The translations under genes were made by a program, and so were the position numbers. Under the pieces are notes generated by a model. That model was given only the letters and a program-made list of their open reading frames with translations. It was not told the DNA's origin and did no database searches. From the NCBI GenBank assembly GCA_030606485.1, contig JAUWGH010000004.1, positions 186,001 to 250,000 of the forward strand: a DNA stretch of 64,000 bases, written 5' to 3'. This document shows positions 25,236-36,491 of this stretch, piece after piece; within the stretch, counting starts at the first letter, position 1; every line of letters starts with the position of its first letter. The DNA is from Promethearchaeota archaeon (GTDB lineage: Archaea; Asgardarchaeota; Lokiarchaeia; Sigyniarchaeales; SOKP01).

Positions 25236-26522
25236 ATGAATGATCTTCGAAGTAAATTGAAAATTTCTGAAGAGGCATTAAAAGCCCTAAATGATTTTCT
25301 TCTGGATAAGGATAATCTTATTATTAACGACCTTTTTAAAATTATAGACAAGTATGGTGGGGTTGAAGAGATTAACAAAAAGGCGGAAGAGGCGGGAAAG
25401 TTGGACAATTTAATTCAACAGTTAGAAAAGAAAAATCCATCATATGTAAAAAATATCGATTGGTTAATTGAGCAACGTGATAAACAAGCTTTTATTAGTA
25501 TTCGCGAGTATCGACGGAAGATTCTTGGTGATAAAGCTGAAAAGATGGACTTTGACGATACTTTTGCGGTAACTTTAGAGTTATCTGCATGTCAGTATTT
25601 TCCATTTTTAGTTGATATTATAAAACGAGCTATTGAGCATAAATTATTAGTACCTGGTCGAATAATTCGCGTTAGAAAAATGAAAGAGCAGGAAGAAGAT
25701 GGGGATCTTTTGGCTATGGCTGCTGCTATGCAAATTATTGGTGCATCATATGTAGAGACACTTGATACTAAGGGTACAGCTCCAGGTCCTGATGGACTTC
25801 CTGTAAATGTTCATCTTGGTGGTCCTGAAACCATTACCGGTTATTTCGGAGGCGTTGGTCAACCAAATGACTTTGCCTTGAAATGGGTTGATGAGTATCT
25901 CTACTATTATACAAATTATGGTATTAAACAAGTTCTCAACGTAAATCCCGGCACAGTTCTTCTTGGTTATTTTCTTTACAAACTGGGAATTAATAATGAA
26001 TTCAAAATTTCAGTCTATATGGGGAACGACAACCCTTATGCTTGTCTTTGGACCTTGATGACAGCAAAGTTATTTGCTCGAGAAGATGGTACAAGTCCAC
26101 TGATCGGTTTCAATCTTGCAAACTCCGTTAATAATGAGACAATCGAACTGTCAGCATATATTAGGAAATCATTTGGTTTTGAAGATATTGTTCGTTTAGA
26201 ACATCATATAGTTGAGACATGGAAAAGCATTGTAAGGCAGCCATATGATCGTCGGGATGAATTAATTGAACTTGCTAAAAAAGTAAAGAATGTGAGTGCT
26301 AAACATGAGGGGGGTAATATCGAAGTTGAACAGAAACGAGAGCATCCTTCGGATATTCTTGAATATTTCATGAGCAAAGAGGAGATTATGGAAGCAAATT
26401 TGTGGGAATCTATGCGAATTAACCATCTTGACCGTAATGATGCAGTAAATGCAACTGCCAGAGCTCTCACTGAGAATGGACTTACATTTCTCGCTGCAAG
26501 GAATCTTCATCAACTTAAATAA
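25236..26522 (+). CDS. unrecognised 428-aa protein upstream of the aldolase-Fae fusion
   Basis: A soluble protein: a charged helical N-terminus (1-110), then an alternating helix/strand region that could be a TIM-barrel-like fold (about 115-330), then a helical end. Conserved-looking patches are LDTKGTAPGPDGLP, VHLGGPETITGYFGGVG, YMGNDNPYACLW, NLANSVNNETIE and LEHHIVETW. I do not recognise the family. A strong GGAGG ribosome-binding site precedes the ATG. The DapA-Fae gene begins 18 nt downstream, so the two are surely co-transcribed and this protein may make or use the aldolase substrate. Lack of cysteine clusters argues against an Fe-S or radical enzyme. Confidence 0.7.
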   Translation: MNDLRSKLKISEEALKALNDFLLDKDNLIINDLFKIIDKYGGVEEINKKAEEAGKLDNLIQQLEKKNPSYVKNIDWLIEQRDKQAFISIREYRRKILGDKAEKMDFDDTFAVTLELSACQYFPFLVDIIKRAIEHKLLVPGRIIRVRKMKEQEEDGDLLAMAAAMQIIGASYVETLDTKGTAPGPDGLPVNVHLGGPETITGYFGGVGQPNDFALKWVDEYLYYYTNYGIKQVLNVNPGTVLLGYFLYKLGINNEFKISVYMGNDNPYACLWTLMTAKLFAREDGTSPLIGFNLANSVNNETIELSAYIRKSFGFEDIVRLEHHIVETWKSIVRQPYDRRDELIELAKKVKNVSAKHEGGNIEVEQKREHPSDILEYFMSKEEIMEANLWESMRINHLDRNDAVNATARALTENGLTFLAARNLHQLK

Positions 26523-26540
26523 AATTAAAGGTGAAAATAC

Positions 26541-28043
26541 ATGAGTAAAAATAAAGGAAAATTTGATTTCCGTCCTTCGGGGGTAATTCCTGCACTAGTT
26601 ACACCATTCAATAAGGAAGATGAATCTATTAATGAAGAGAATTTACGTAATCTAGTAAGTTTTCTAATTGAACAAGGAGTAACGGGTCTCGTTCCATGTG
26701 GTACAACTGGTGAATTTGTGAATATGACTTTTAAGGAGCGTCTGAAAGTAATCGAGATTGTAGTGGATGAGGCGAATGGGAGAGTCCCGGTAATTGCAGG
26801 AACTGGAGAATCGGGAACTAAACTCGTTATTGATGCTACTAGGGCTGCTACTGATATTGGTGCAGATGCAGCTATTATAGTAACACCTTATTATCTTAAA
26901 CCTAAAGCAAAAGGTTTATATGATCACTATTTTACGATAACTGAAAAGACAGATATACCTCTCGTTCTATATAATATTCCTCCTTGCACAGGGGTTAATT
27001 TGCCTTGGACTGTGGTAGAGGATCTTGTCGATATTGATAATATTGTAGCTATTAAGGATTCAAGTGGTGATTACAAATATTTTTCTGCATTATTGGAAAA
27101 AGTAAGTGATCGAATCTCAGTCCTTATTGGATGGGATGAAAATGTCTTGGCAGCGCTGGCTGGTGGAGCTGCAGGAATGATTCTTGCCTCAGCTAATGTG
27201 ATTCCAAAGATTTGGCTCGAACTATATAATCATGTGAAAAACAACCGTCTTGAGGAAGCTCAGGTTCTTCAGAAAAAGATTCAAAAATTTACTCGGATGA
27301 TGGTAAGTTCTGGTGCTTTAGGACCTAAAGAGTGTTTGAATATGATGAATATTCCTGTTGGTGTTACTCGACAGCCGATAATAATGGGTGATACACTTTC
27401 CTATGAGCTTTGGGATGAATTTAGAATTGAATTGGAGAAGTTAGGTTTGCTAAAAAAGAAGGAAATTAAATTTGAAGTTGCCGAGAAAGAACTTACGAGT
27501 CGTTTTTATTCTGTTGATATTACTCCTCAGAAAATTTCAGACTTTAGTTTAAGGGTTGGTGAATCACTCGTAGGAAATAGAGCCGAACTTGCTCATGTAG
27601 ACCTTCTTATTGGTGATAAGAAAGGTCCTGTTGGTGAAGCATATGCTCGTTCCCTAACACATCCTGCGAAAGGACGTGAAGGTCTTCAAGTAATTCTTGA
27701 ACCTAACATGCAAGTTAAACCGGCAACAGTAATGATTCCTACAGTTAAAGTCCATTCGCTACGTCAAGCAAGTCTCGTATATGGACCTGCACAAGCAGCA
27801 GTAGGGAAAGCGGTAATGAAATGTGTGGAAGATGGTATTCTTCCTAAAGATGCTTCAGAAGATTTAGTGATTATTGCAAATGTTTTTGTGCATCCCAGTG
27901 CAAGTAGTCGCAAACGAATTTTTATTAATAACTATAAAGCAACCCGGAATGCTATTCGAAAGGCGATGGAAGGATTACCAACAGCAGATGATGGCATAAA
28001 GAATAGTGAAAATGCTCGCCACCCATTTAGAAATGATCCTTAA
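26541..28043 (+). CDS. bifunctional DapA-family aldolase and formaldehyde-activating enzyme (Fae) fusion
   Basis: 500 aa with two complete domains. Residues 12-305 are a class I pyruvate-type aldolase of the DHDPS/NAL family: PCGTTGEF (52-59), [10 protein letters not shown] with Y144, and VAIKDSSG with the Schiff-base lysine K172. Residues about 335-490 are Fae: [20 protein letters not shown] with the catalytic His (H352), [33 protein letters not shown] and ANVFVHPSA. Fae condenses formaldehyde with tetrahydromethanopterin to methylene-H4MPT. An aldolase that releases formaldehyde (for example from 4-hydroxy-2-oxobutanoate, giving pyruvate) would feed the fused Fae; the substrate is inference. 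Fae is otherwise known fused to hexulose-phosphate synthase. Convergent with the glycine cleavage operon. Confidence 0.92.
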
Positions 28044-28091: not shown

Positions 28092-29528
28092 TTAATCGTG
28101 TAATATTGGCTTTCGAGCAGCAAGAGCAGCATCAAGACGTTTTACTGGAGTGTTGAAGGGGGCATTTTTGAGAAGCTCTGGATTGGTTTTTGTTTCATTG
28201 TAGATTTTATTCATCACCTCAACAAAATTATCTAATGAAATTTTCGACTCAGTCTCGGTTGGTTCAATCATCATAGCACCTTTTACTATTAACGGAAAAT
28301 AAATTGTTGGGGCATATAATCCATAATCAAGAATACGTTTTGCAATATCTTCAGTAGTTATATTATTTTCAATTCCTCGATCTGAAAGCACAAATTCATG
28401 CTGACAGATTCGATCATATGGAAGGTGGTATTTTTCTTTTAAAAGAACTCGCAAATAATTTGCATTAAGAACAGCTATTTGACCCACGCGTTTTAGACCT
28501 TCGGCACCTAAGGCGAGAATATAGGCATATGCACGCACAATAACTCCAAAATTACCCCAAAAGCATTTAATCCGACCAATAGAATTGTTGGTTTTTTCTC
28601 GACATACAAATCCCTGTTCTGTAGCGATAATGGAGGGTTCAGGGAGATATGAAACGAGTTCTTTAATAACACCCACAGGTCCAGAACCAGGACCACCTCC
28701 ACCATGTGGAGTTGAGAAAGTTTTATGGAAATTCAGATGGATGATATCAAAACCCATATCCCCTGGGCGGCAAATCCCTAACATAGGATTCAAATTAGCG
28801 CCATCATAGTAGCATAAACCCCCATATTTGTGTATGATATTCGTGATATCCTTAATTTGACGGTCAAATATACCCAAAGTATTGGGATTAGTTAACATTA
28901 TACCCGCTACATCGCCCTGCTGCATTGCGAATTCAATGTGATCAAGTGGAATTTCTCCCGCATTATTTGATCGTACTTCGATTATTGAAAAACCTGCCAT
29001 TTTTGCAGATGATGGGTTAGTTCCATGGGCGGAATCTGGTATTAATATTTTATTTTTTTTGAGATTTTTATTCTCGAAATATTTTTTCATTATTAAAATC
29101 CCAGTTAATTCTCCATGAGCTCCCGCAGCAGGTTGAAAAGTAAATCCATCCATACCGGTAATTTCTATGAGCATCTCTGAGAGTTGGTGTATTAGTTCAA
29201 GAGCGCCTTGATTACCTTCTTGAAGAGGATGTATTTGGGAAAAAGCTGGAAGTCGAGTGATCACCTCATTAATTTTAGGATTATATTTCATAGTGCATGA
29301 ACCAAGCGGATAAATTCCTGAATCTATCCCATAATTTTTCCTACTCAACTCGGTATAATGGCGTACAATTTCTACCTCTGGAATATCGGGTAAGGGAAAA
29401 TCTTCTCGTTGAAAAGATGAGGGAATTATTTCGGCTAAATCAGCTCTATCTATATCCATTTCAGGAATGAAATTATGTTGAGAGCGTTTAGTACCTTTGT
29501 TAAAAATCAAAGTCAGGTTTGAAGTCAT
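28092..29528 (-). CDS. gcvPB: glycine dehydrogenase (decarboxylating) subunit 2
   Basis: The 478-aa PLP-carrying half of the split P protein of the glycine cleavage system. IIHLNFHKTFSTPHGGGGPG (about 264-283) contains the PLP lysine (HKTFSTPHGGGG); SCTMKYNPKINE and PAAGAHGELTGIL are further family motifs. With GcvPA it decarboxylates glycine and passes the aminomethyl group to lipoyl-GcvH. It starts 3 nt after the stop of gcvPA, and is the last gene of the gcvT-H-PA-PB operon. Confidence 0.95.
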   Translation of the reverse strand: MTSNLTLIFNKGTKRSQHNFIPEMDIDRADLAEIIPSSFQREDFPLPDIPEVEIVRHYTELSRKNYGIDSGIYPLGSCTMKYNPKINEVITRLPAFSQIHPLQEGNQGALELIHQLSEMLIEITGMDGFTFQPAAGAHGELTGILIMKKYFENKNLKKNKILIPDSAHGTNPSSAKMAGFSIIEVRSNNAGEIPLDHIEFAMQQGDVAGIMLTNPNTLGIFDRQIKDITNIIHKYGGLCYYDGANLNPMLGICRPGDMGFDIIHLNFHKTFSTPHGGGGPGSGPVGVIKELVSYLPEPSIIATEQGFVCREKTNNSIGRIKCFWGNFGVIVRAYAYILALGAEGLKRVGQIAVLNANYLRVLLKEKYHLPYDRICQHEFVLSDRGIENNITTEDIAKRILDYGLYAPTIYFPLIVKGAMMIEPTETESKISLDNFVEVMNKIYNETKTNPELLKNAPFNTPVKRLDAALAARKPILHD

Positions 29529-29531
29529 TGT

Positions 29532-30872
29532 TTAATTCCCTCCTATGTTTTTATTAGAAGCTTTTTGAGCTGCATGAATGAATTTTTCTATATCCTCCCG
29601 AGAATTACTCTCAGTAACACATACAAGTACAATATCTTTCATATCAGGAAAATATTTCGATATAATTAGAGGTGGAAGCAGATTTTCCTGTTTGCATTGT
29701 TCAATTAGTTTATTAACATTTGGACATTTAACCAAAAATTCATTATATGTTGGTTTCTTATTTAATATTTGATAACCTGGGATGGTTGCTAATTTTTGCT
29801 TAACATAATGAGATTTTTGAAAATTTTGAAGAGCAATCTCTTGAAGCCCTGTTTTTCCCAATGAAACGAGATAAATTAACGAGGCTAAAGCACACAGTGC
29901 TTGGTTCGTACAAATATTTGAAGTGGCTTTCTCACGACGTATATGTTGTTCGCGGGTTTGTAAAGTTAGGATAAATCCCTCTCGCTCTCCATCAATTTCG
30001 TTAGTTTTACCAATCAACCGACCTGGCATTTTACGCAAATATTTTTGCTTAGATGCAAAAATTCCTAATCCTGGACCCCCAAATGATGGTGAAATACCAA
30101 AAGATTGTCCTTCAGCAACAAAAATATCAATATCGGATTTTCCTGGAGGTTTTAACACGCCTAGGCAAGTAGGATCGGTCATTACTTGAACAACTAAACA
30201 TTTGGGAGCTTTATCTCTAATTTTTTGAACTAATTCTGATACATTTTCGATGTCTCCAAAAAAATTAGGACTCTGAAATAAAACAGCTGCAACACTATCA
30301 TCCAATTTTGAGATGAGTGTATCCTCCATAACAATTTCAAAATGGATGTCTTGCCCCCAGCAATAGGTCTTAACAACTTCTACATATTCCGGATGAATTC
30401 CTTCAAGTAAAATAAGTTTTTTTTTCTGCGTGGCTATAGTTGCCATAATTGCAGCTTCAGCAAGAGCAGTGGACCCATCATACACACTCGCATTGGCAAC
30501 ATCCATCTGGGTAAGCCGCGTAATTGCTGTTTGATACTCATAAATGGCTTGTAAATACCCTTGACTGGCTTCTGCTTGGTAGGGAGTATAGGCAGTATAA
30601 AATCCCGAAAGGCTAATTACAAAATCCACCAATGAAGGAATATAATGGTAATAACAACCAGCTCCTAGAAAAGAACTTGAATAAATTTTATTTTTATTTG
30701 AAAGTTCTTCTAATCGCCGTAAAAGATCTGGTTCAGACAAACCATGAGGTATGTTTAATTTTTCTAACAGCAAATCTGCTGGAATGTCTTGAAATAACTC
30801 CTCTAAGGAATTAACACCGATGGAAGTTAACATCTCGGCAATTGTTTCTTTATCATGAAGTATAAAATCCAT
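29532..30872 (-). CDS. gcvPA: glycine dehydrogenase (decarboxylating) subunit 1
   Basis: The 446-aa subunit that pairs with GcvPB. SSFLGAGCYYHYIPSLVDFV, YTPYQAEASQGYLQAIYEYQ and SVYDGSTALAEAAIMAT are family signatures, and FGGPGLGIFASKQKYLRKMP lies in the later half. It has no PLP lysine of its own, as expected. Sixty nt separate it from gcvH. Confidence 0.95.
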   Translation of the reverse strand: MDFILHDKETIAEMLTSIGVNSLEELFQDIPADLLLEKLNIPHGLSEPDLLRRLEELSNKNKIYSSSFLGAGCYYHYIPSLVDFVISLSGFYTAYTPYQAEASQGYLQAIYEYQTAITRLTQMDVANASVYDGSTALAEAAIMATIATQKKKLILLEGIHPEYVEVVKTYCWGQDIHFEIVMEDTLISKLDDSVAAVLFQSPNFFGDIENVSELVQKIRDKAPKCLVVQVMTDPTCLGVLKPPGKSDIDIFVAEGQSFGISPSFGGPGLGIFASKQKYLRKMPGRLIGKTNEIDGEREGFILTLQTREQHIRREKATSNICTNQALCALASLIYLVSLGKTGLQEIALQNFQKSHYVKQKLATIPGYQILNKKPTYNEFLVKCPNVNKLIEQCKQENLLPPLIISKYFPDMKDIVLVCVTESNSREDIEKFIHAAQKASNKNIGGN

Positions 30873-30932
30873 TCTATCTATCTCATTTAGATGGTAATAG
30901 TTGGATTAATCTATTAAATTAAAAAAAAACTA

Positions 30933-31328
30933 TTAATCTTCCTCTTTTTGGATCATTTCTTGATATTTTTCAACCGAGAGAAGATTTTTAATTTCATCTG
31001 GGTTAGATACTTTAATTTTCATTATCCAACCCTCCCCGTAAGGCGAAGAATTCAGAAATGCTGGATTATCAGCGATGTTTCCATTAGTTTCAACAATTTC
31101 TCCCGTTAAAGGCATGAAAAGTTCGCTAACAGCTTTGACTGATTCAATTTCGCATGCTGCATTTCCTTTTTCTAATACTGCTCCTATTACAGGGAGTTCA
31201 ACATATACAATATCGCCAAGTTTATGTTGTGCGTAGTCAGAGATTCCAACAGTTGCCATATCTCCATCCATTCTAACCCACTCGTGAGTTGGTGCATATT
31301 TTAAATCTGCAGGAAATTTTAGATCCAT
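30933..31328 (-). CDS. gcvH: glycine cleavage system H protein
   Basis: A 131-aa lipoyl carrier. YAPTHEWVRMDGDMATVGIS opens the domain, and CEIESVKAVSELFMPLTGEI holds the lipoylated K65. It shuttles the aminomethyl group from the P protein to GcvT. This is the operon copy; a second, more divergent copy lies at 36063-36491. No lipoate ligase or synthase is in the window. Confidence 0.95.
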   Translation of the reverse strand: MDLKFPADLKYAPTHEWVRMDGDMATVGISDYAQHKLGDIVYVELPVIGAVLEKGNAACEIESVKAVSELFMPLTGEIVETNGNIADNPAFLNSSPYGEGWIMKIKVSNPDEIKNLLSVEKYQEMIQKEED

Positions 31329-31366
31329 CCTTATTCACATTAATCTTGATTTTTATTCAAATTTTA

Positions 31367-32473
31367 CTATATATTACGATAAAATGGTGTGGGAACTACT
31401 TTGGCTTTAAGAAGTTTATTCCGAATTTCAATGTCAAATTCCGTCCCGATGGAGCTATATTGTGTTTCAACGAGAGCTAAGCCAATTGTGTTTTTAAGCG
31501 TTGGTGAGAATCCCCCAGAAGTTACATATCCAATTTCTACCCCGTTCTTAAATAATTTGTAGTTTTCTCTAATGATTCCCCTATTCAAGAGATTTAATCC
31601 AACAAGAATTCGTGATGTCCCCTCTTTTTTTTGGCGAATAAGAACTTCCTTACCTATAAAATCAATTCCTTCTTTTGGTTTTACAAGCCAGTTAAGCCCT
31701 GCTTCAATCGGGGTTATTGAATTAGTAAGTTCATGACCATACAAGCAGTAACAAGCTTCTAAACGTAAAGAATCCCGCGCCCCTAAACCTGCAGCACCAG
31801 CTCCTGTTTTCATAAAAGCATTCCAAATTGTTACAGCGTATTTATTTTCAAAAGAAATTTCAAAACCTCTCTCACCAGTGTAACCAGTTCGGGCTATGAA
31901 TGCAGGAACATCACACAAATTACAAAAAACAAAATAAAACCGATTCAAAGTAGATAAATCTGTATCAACGAGTGGCGCAATTAAGTCATCAGATTTCGGC
32001 CCTTGAAATGCTAATCGACATCTTTCTTTCGAGACATCCCTAACTTTTACTCGAAAGTTTCCAATTTGCTTATTAATCCATTGAAAATCTTTCTCTACAT
32101 TACTTGCGTTGACAATCATCCGAAATCGTTCCGGACTCTCCTCATAGTAAACTAAATCGTCTACTACAGTCCCATTTTCATAACACATGCAAGAATATTG
32201 TCCTTTTGACTTTTCTAATAATTTTAAATCATTCACCATCAAATATTGAAGGAATGGTATCACATCTGGACCTTCAAAAATAAATTCTCCCATATGAGAA
32301 ATATCGAACACACCTGCAAGCGTTCGAATGGTTTCATGTTCCTTTAAAATGCTTTCATATTGGACTGGCATCAACCATCCAGCAAAATTCACCATTCGCG
32401 CCCCCAATTTTACATGAGTCTCATATAAAGGGGTTTTTGTTCCATTTAGGTCTTCTTTAGTTATAAATTCCAC
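31367..32473 (-). CDS. gcvT: aminomethyltransferase (glycine cleavage T protein)
   Basis: A 368-aa folate/pterin-dependent enzyme. LGARMVNFAGWLMPVQYESI, GVFDISHMGEFIFEGPD, RTGYTGERGFEISFE and the GLGARDSLRLEACYCLYGHE motif are typical. It releases ammonia and makes methylene-tetrahydropterin. Since MptE and Fae are encoded close by, the natural acceptor may be H4MPT or a related pterin. First gene of the operon; the 250-nt spacer to the ferredoxin shows no recognisable glycine riboswitch. Confidence 0.94.
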   Translation of the reverse strand: MEFITKEDLNGTKTPLYETHVKLGARMVNFAGWLMPVQYESILKEHETIRTLAGVFDISHMGEFIFEGPDVIPFLQYLMVNDLKLLEKSKGQYSCMCYENGTVVDDLVYYEESPERFRMIVNASNVEKDFQWINKQIGNFRVKVRDVSKERCRLAFQGPKSDDLIAPLVDTDLSTLNRFYFVFCNLCDVPAFIARTGYTGERGFEISFENKYAVTIWNAFMKTGAGAAGLGARDSLRLEACYCLYGHELTNSITPIEAGLNWLVKPKEGIDFIGKEVLIRQKKEGTSRILVGLNLLNRGIIRENYKLFKNGVEIGYVTSGGFSPTLKNTIGLALVETQYSSIGTEFDIEIRNKLLKAKVVPTPFYRNI

Positions 32474-36062: not shown

Positions 36063-36491
36063 TTATTGAATAGATGCAACATAATCTGCGGTTGATATCA
36101 AGTTTCCTTTCTCTGCATCAAGATTTGAAGCTTCAACCTTAAATAACCAAGCTGCATAAGGATCTTCATTTACCTTTTCAGGTTCATCCATTAAGTCAGG
36201 ATTTACTTCAACTACCTTACCTGATATTGGACTAAATATATCTCCAACACCTTTCTGGCTTTCGACTGTACAATCTACAGGATCGCCTGATCCATCAACA
36301 TCTTGAGAAACCTCTGCTCCTTCAACACCTTCTACATCAACGAAAGTAATTTCTCCCAATTGGTCAGCAGCATAAGAAGTAATACCGACAGTTACAATAT
36401 TTCCGTCAATTTTTGCCCATTGGTGTGCTTTAGAGTACAATAAATCATCTGGAAAGTCTAGTTCTTTATCATTAATTGTGGCTTTTACCAT
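36063..36491 (-). CDS. second GcvH-like lipoyl protein
   Basis: 142 aa. HQWAKIDGNIVTVGITSYAA and TVESQKGVGDIFSPISGKVV keep the lipoyl lysine (K80), so the fold is that of GcvH. Between the two halves an acidic insert (EGAEVSQDVDGSGDPVDC, about 58-74) is not present in the operon copy, and a Cys stands six residues before the lysine. There is no other gcv gene next to it. It may be a dedicated lipoyl carrier for another enzyme (compare LbpA proteins of the sHdr system), but that is inference. Confidence 0.85.
   Translation of the reverse strand: MVKATINDKELDFPDDLLYSKAHQWAKIDGNIVTVGITSYAADQLGEITFVDVEGVEGAEVSQDVDGSGDPVDCTVESQKGVGDIFSPISGKVVEVNPDLMDEPEKVNEDPYAAWLFKVEASNLDAEKGNLISTADYVASIQ

Follow-up and report, generated by a model that had tools for sequence, protein, structure and literature searches.

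What might be the task of a protein whose gene directly precedes a fusion of an aldolase to formaldehyde-activating enzyme (Fae)? We pursued this question in a 64,000-nucleotide window of DNA from a Promethearchaeota archaeon, in which such a protein of 428 amino acids, here called P1, is followed on the same strand by a DapA-Fae fusion (Table 1). Drawing on its co-localisation with changing partner enzymes, we favour a reading in which P1 is a TIM-barrel enzyme working at the 4-hydroxy-2-oxobutanoate (HOB) node between the C1 pool and pyruvate/homoserine, and give it a probability of roughly 45%. That P1 acts in the same pathway as DapA-Fae is very probable, and any one specific chemistry for P1 itself would be an unlikely guess at best.

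The P1 gene and its family

The open reading frame lies where a first-pass annotation of this DNA had put it, behind a GGAGG and 18 nt ahead of the fusion gene; the 11 nt between GGAGG and ATG are rather long for Shine-Dalgarno spacing. Same-strand pairs of P1 and DapA-Fae in relatives are mostly separated by 2-28 nt, with values of -41 to -4 in a few pairs whose starts are uncertain. An Rfam search returned no element. An apparent glycine cleavage operon (window 28092-32473, minus strand; GcvPB, GcvPA, GcvH and GcvT, named from reading the sequences) is convergent with the DapA-Fae gene. About 4 kb away lies a second gene resembling GcvH (36063-36491, minus strand). Glycine cleavage is known to supply methylene-pterin and formaldehyde (PMC7227101).

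Table 1 Features of P1 and the DapA-Fae fusion, in window coordinates.
Feature	Position	Strand	Evidence or remark
P1, 428-aa protein	25236-26522 (stop included)	+	ATG at 25236, stop 26520-26522
GGAGG, Shine-Dalgarno-like, for P1	25220-25224	+	sequence; 11 nt before ATG
Gap between P1 and fusion gene, 18 nt	26523-26540	+	sequence; gap lengths in relatives
All-helical N-terminal region of P1 (predicted), about aa 1-104	25236-25547	+	AlphaFold2 model
TIM-barrel domain of P1 (predicted), about aa 105-428	25548-26519	+	models; fold searches
Glycine-rich loop of P1, aa 180-211 (GT..PGPDG.PVNVHLGGP.TITGYFGGVGQPN)	25773-25868	+	conservation; AlphaFold2 model
DapA-Fae fusion, 500 aa	26541-28043	+	
DHDPS-family class I pyruvate aldolase domain (by sequence), aa 12-281	26574-27383	+	E 1.4e-74
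Fae (formaldehyde-activating enzyme) domain, aa 339-496	27555-28028	+	E 8.8e-57

Homologues of P1 occur in 126 of the 227 genomes of its phylum at 63-95% identity and in single copy, apart from rare split matches. Scanning genome contigs met at least 534 relatives, the taxa being Lokiarchaeota, Heimdallarchaeota, Thorarchaeota, Hodarchaeota, Borrarchaeota, Bathyarchaeota, Thermoplasmata, Anaerolineae (Chloroflexota) and Bacillota; viral contigs held none. Because conserved single-copy homologues span the phylum and relatives extend beyond it, P1 is a true gene and not a chance open reading frame. Most genomes surveyed are MAGs, so gene absences may be gaps, and the neighbourhood open reading frames come from mechanical calling. 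A Polaromonas plasmid carries a more divergent copy (53%), annotated as a hypothetical protein. Its neighbours include a sigma-54-type regulator, an open reading frame resembling short-chain dehydrogenases, a TRAP transporter gene and a member of the DHDPS family (L183, 7627-13936), a catabolic-looking setting unlike other P1 loci.

The first-pass annotation had described patches of conserved-looking glycine, histidine and asparagine in a protein of no nameable family, and both descriptions held. Eight residues (G205, G206, H193, H323, H324, H357, N293 and N296) do not vary between archaeal and bacterial members, and four more (N235, N237, N264 and N266) hardly vary. Pfam gave no usable match to P1 (best E 0.09), and a Pfam search with all 52 A2 members of the family stayed at chance level (best E 0.0065). 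NCBIfam gave zero matches; PDB sequences gave none by phmmer and one spurious match (E 0.33) in a profile search. Judged by these searches, P1 is a member of no catalogued family tested (Pfam-A and NCBIfam, at curated cut-offs).

Partner genes of P1

Among the 80 named loci, DapA-Fae lies within a few genes of P1 in 36; an aminotransferase (AAT), a homoserine dehydrogenase (HSD) and/or an aldehyde:ferredoxin oxidoreductase (AOR) accompanies P1 in 24, and PanB in four. Most remaining loci are from Thorarchaeota. The three sets follow lineages: P1 with DapA-Fae in Lokiarchaeota, one group of Heimdallarchaeota and Bathyarchaeota; P1 with AAT (class I/II), HSD (NF004912, 425 bits; cut-off 373) and AOR in other Heimdallarchaeota, Hodarchaeota and Thermoplasmata, Fae-less where tested; and P1 with a divergent PanB in bacteria. 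Fae had no match in 36 P1-bearing genomes (all P1-positive genomes of families f11, f12, f15 and the f3 genera g12 and g13); in most of these, as in Thermoplasmata, the neighbours of P1 are AAT/HSD/AOR. Thorarchaeota carry P1 and a DapA-Fae pair, unlinked, and neither their P1 nor that of Borrarchaeum has DapA-Fae, AAT/HSD/AOR or PanB as a neighbour. On a well-supported P1 tree of 86 rows, the partner label requires at least eight changes; taken alone, the DapA-Fae label requires four and the AAT/HSD/AOR label five, four of these forced by well-supported branches. Recurrent changes of this kind indicate that one single-copy P1 repeatedly swapped partners among three sets. Other conserved neighbours, named from reading their sequences (for example, a nitroreductase, a peroxiredoxin and a methyltransferase), pointed to no pathway.

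These patterns bear on the strict two-gene system that the first-pass annotation had envisaged. Coupling to DapA-Fae stands for Lokiarchaeota, one Heimdallarchaeota group and Bathyarchaeota and does not extend as a strict system beyond some lineages. A constant association is contradicted by the 36 Fae-less genomes, the other partners, the unlinked genes of Thorarchaeota and the replacement of P1 by a U32-like protein (below). The outcome named beforehand as speaking against the coupling was that most homologues would have no aldolase or Fae gene close by; with DapA-Fae near P1 in 36 of 80 loci, this has come about in part.

The Fae domain of the fusion scores above the cut-offs of PF08714 and TIGR03126 (192 and 193 bits). 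In the aldolase domain, the Schiff-base Lys172, Tyr144 and T56 are each present in 81 of 81 fusions and T55 is Thr or Ser, residues by which the domain is a class I pyruvate aldolase of the DHDPS family. The position that in DHDPS holds the Arg binding the semialdehyde carboxylate (Arg138 in E. coli) is Cys149 in the window, and across the 81 fusions it is Cys in 67, Leu in ten and Val in four. The domain thereby lacks a defining feature of a strict dihydrodipicolinate synthase, although its score exceeds the dapA equivalog cut-off (231 versus 206). Since the Arg that holds the large DHDPS co-substrate is gone, a small aldehyde would suit the domain, and since Fae is fused to it, that aldehyde may be formaldehyde. 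A second Fae protein is encoded elsewhere in the genome (G000:C2:171370-171843).

A counterpart is Fae-Hps (NF009833), which likewise joins a formaldehyde-handling aldolase to Fae; the window's fusion matches it over the Fae part. The two differ in the aldolase, which in Fae-Hps is a C-terminal hexulose-phosphate synthase and in DapA-Fae an N-terminal member of the DapA family. The literature searched held no report of a DapA-Fae fusion, absence there not being proof. Thorarchaeota have two such fusions in tandem, overlapping or nearly touching (L211, 3608-6519; L213, 6501-9383), of which the first has an incomplete Fae part (71 bits); close to them is a gene whose product contains an AIR carboxylase domain. 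A divergent DHDPS-family protein with no Fae domain (E 3.8e-15) directly precedes P1 in one Fae-less genome (G087; L039, 6778-7824).

PanB, ketopantoate hydroxymethyltransferase, uses methylene-tetrahydrofolate to extend a 2-oxo acid by a methylene unit. It directly precedes P1 in 11 of the 13 Chloroflexota contexts fetched, with a short open reading frame between them in two, and in two loci (L178 and L179) the PanB and P1 stop and start codons overlap. Examples lie at L146 2043-2897, L147 7089-7967 and L168 8205-9074, among others. The P1-linked partner fits PanB models, exceeding the NCBIfam cut-off (TIGR00222; 294.8 versus 207.55 bits), yet forms a clade of its own, 45% identical to canonical PanB and 75% within itself. 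A stretch conserved in PanB (IPTIGIGAG..CDGQ) is altered in 13 of 14 P1-linked copies, and six Chloroflexota have a second PanB elsewhere. The separate clade, changed signature stretch and second copy make a different 2-oxo acid likely as substrate, and on sequence the P1-linked genes are probably misannotated as PanB. In one Bacillota genome (G229), the linked copy is the sole PanB; being sole and above the cut-off, it could be an ordinary PanB there.

The adjacency of PanB and P1 in bacteria could also mean that pantothenate/CoA biosynthesis is where P1 acts and that DapA-Fae takes the place of the ketopantoate synthase, and six genomes do have DapA-Fae and lack PanB. Canonical PanB is kept, however, in three type A genomes and three Thorarchaeota; in the six Chloroflexota the PanB linked to P1 is a second copy and divergent; and HSD and AOR would have no role. 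We consider this highly improbable.

Fold and distant relatives

An AlphaFold2 model of P1 built with 52 relatives (mean pLDDT 89, pTM 0.89) has a helical N-terminus followed by an eight-stranded TIM barrel, in keeping with the enzyme-like character proposed in the first pass. In the model, residues 194-208 fall below pLDDT 50 despite the high conservation of the surrounding loop (180-211), a mismatch which suggests that the loop is probably ordered by a ligand, cofactor or partner. Fold searches with the whole model and with the barrel alone returned TIM barrels, with no single family standing out; matches to aldolases, MTHFR, ThiC and others fell at Z 10.5-12.4.

Foldseek's best PDB matches were class II aldolases, and the P1 barrel has an invariant Lys and Glu. 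P1 might then itself be a C1-pyruvate ligase or lyase (HOB synthase or aldolase), redundant with DapA-Fae and PanB or backing them up; the Fae-less AAT/HSD/AOR loci have no adjacent gene for another HOB-forming enzyme. We hold this to be quite unlikely, as P1 and its most conserved partners would share one reaction and TIM-barrel matches at these Z values are unspecific.

The many MTHFR entries among the barrel matches raise another idea, that P1 is a pterin or flavin C1 enzyme (MTHFR-like, for example) giving or using the methylene-pterin common to DapA-Fae and PanB. Both of these partners rely on a C1 unit carried by a pterin, Thorarchaeota encode a riboflavin-family ECF S component just upstream of P1, and the glycine cleavage operon flanks the window's pair. 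But the MTHFR Z values are within 1-2 of those of unrelated barrels, P1 has no MTHFR sequence match in Pfam or NCBIfam, and the AAT/HSD/AOR loci contain no C1 enzyme, which makes such an identity very unlikely. A glutamate mutase E or B12-dependent mutase identity, prompted by a structural Z of 11.8 that is not distinctive, gained no support from profile comparison: glutamate mutase E proteins (PF06368) gave an hhalign E of 0.18 over 15 columns, much like a reversed profile. Kinship of P1 to the partner barrels PanB and DapA left zero profile signal.

Profile comparison linked P1 to a family of U32-like proteins (labelled 'U32 family peptidase' and related to PF01136; for example, Thermomicrobium roseum WP_012642555.1) with E 3.2e-5, score 44 and 73% probability over 259 columns, colinear along the barrel. 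A repeat with 163 P1 rows gave E 4.3e-5, and control profiles (PanB, DapA, glutamate mutase and reversed) gave E 0.09-0.7 with scores of 14-21. The probability was 9% in a first comparison, with 4 and 52 sequences, and 70-73% with broader profiles. By profile, though not by Pfam, P1 is a distant relative of the U32-like barrels: none of the A2 members matches PF01136, and the U32-like relatives match it only weakly themselves. The profile and structure comparison suggested in the first pass thus yielded a distant U32-like barrel and no distinctive fold family. Like P1, the U32-like proteins have a K-x-S strand (FKISV/FKVSV); they differ in length (about 312 aa), share ~22% identity and have neither the P1-type helical N-terminus nor the glycine-rich loop. 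Alignments read by eye give common barrel residues that include E115, R142, K257, S259 and K356 (P1 numbering). Placing the chemistry at the charged ones, Glu115, Arg142, Lys257 and Lys356, would be the most speculative part of our reading.

In four Asgard genomes (G001, G165, G064 and G065), in which P1 was not found, a U32-like protein of 312-322 aa adjoins DapA-Fae (L051 5088-6026, L053 9201-10139, L052 5870-6817 and L067 2226-3194). As a distant P1 relative occupies the same slot, the slot beside DapA-Fae may represent one function. On a T. roseum plasmid (L184, 1253-8939), the gene of the U32-like protein shares an operon with those for a sugar ABC transporter and an enzyme of the mandelate racemase/muconate lactonizing family, which suggests 2-oxo sugar acid metabolism for the U32-like family.

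A proposed node between C1 units and homoserine

HOB, its handling by P1 and the directions of flow are what we infer, HOB because it is the sole metabolite found that plausibly touches all three partner sets. The analysis itself shows the P1 family, its fold class, the recurring partner sets with their repeated swaps on the P1 tree, the distinct PanB clade and the missing DHDPS arginine. The first-pass proposal that P1 supplies or consumes a metabolite of the aldolase likewise stays the leading reading because the other partners fit the same metabolite. In the fusion, the DapA domain would interconvert HOB with pyruvate and formaldehyde, Lys172 forming the Schiff base. The Fae domain would connect formaldehyde, in either direction, with methylene-tetrahydromethanopterin, much as in Fae-Hps with its different aldolase. 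P1 would make HOB from a further acid or turn it into one. In the bacterial set, the divergent PanB would act on pyruvate and methylene-tetrahydrofolate and exchange HOB with P1. In the third set, the aminotransferase would take HOB to homoserine, HSD would carry this on to aspartate semialdehyde and AOR to aspartate, or the steps would run in reverse. None of the six AAT/HSD/AOR genomes tested has ASADH, and their P1 operon carries their sole HSD, so this HSD would not be fed by the usual route. Breakdown would yield reduced ferredoxin through AOR, with Fae catching the freed formaldehyde; synthesis would fit the many P1 genomes without the usual HSD and the glycine cleavage operon flanking the window's pair.

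The reactions proposed for the partners of P1 are those of the synthetic homoserine cycle engineered in E. coli, which runs from pyruvate and formaldehyde through HOB to homoserine (PMC8879981); that cycle was built from promiscuous enzymes and has nothing P1-like in it. That P1 accompanies three different means of combining pyruvate with a C1 unit, or of separating the two, suggests that C1 metabolism and homoserine are linked in nature, a connection known in the literature searched only as an engineered pathway. That literature described no naturally occurring HOB pathway built from genes of this kind, absence there not being proof, and offered nothing relevant on HSD with AOR in Heimdallarchaeota or on U32 proteins with aldolases. 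A wider proposal, that the P1 family is at the heart of a natural modular C1/HOB pathway in archaea and bacteria, with DapA-Fae, the PanB paralogue and AAT/HSD/AOR as exchangeable entry and exit enzymes, is tentative. It would offer a function open to experiment for proteins that Pfam does not cover, and would re-label genes automatically called DHDPS and PanB.

Several observations count against the HOB reading. No gene of a P1 locus is a biochemically proven HOB enzyme, the argument resting on co-localisation; and if DapA-Fae or PanB makes HOB and any aminotransferase finishes homoserine, the contribution of P1 goes unexplained. We also counted against it the dapA and PanB cut-offs that the partners pass, the partnerless P1 of Thorarchaeota and Borrarchaeum and the Polaromonas setting.

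A related possibility is that P1 with DapA-Fae or PanB forms an alternative route from pyruvate and a C1 unit to homoserine (and so to threonine and methionine), replacing aspartate kinase, ASADH and HSD, with P1 as an obligatory step. HSD is missing from 14 P1-positive genomes and present in seven of nine tested P1-minus Asgard genomes, a small and phylogenetically dependent sample not corrected for phylogeny. One of the 14 (G330) has no ASADH or HSD match and a strong threonine synthase match, and a threonine synthase gene adjoins P1 in several Thorarchaeota. Five genomes nevertheless have P1 together with an HSD outside the P1 locus, some archaea may be auxotrophs (G231 is without a threonine synthase match), and no step obviously needs P1; we regard an obligatory route of this kind as unlikely. 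The Thorarchaeota threonine-synthase-like protein is about 492 aa long, is encoded two genes from P1 (L045, 5215-6693, minus strand, and similar loci) and carries a C-terminal extension that reads as a winged helix.
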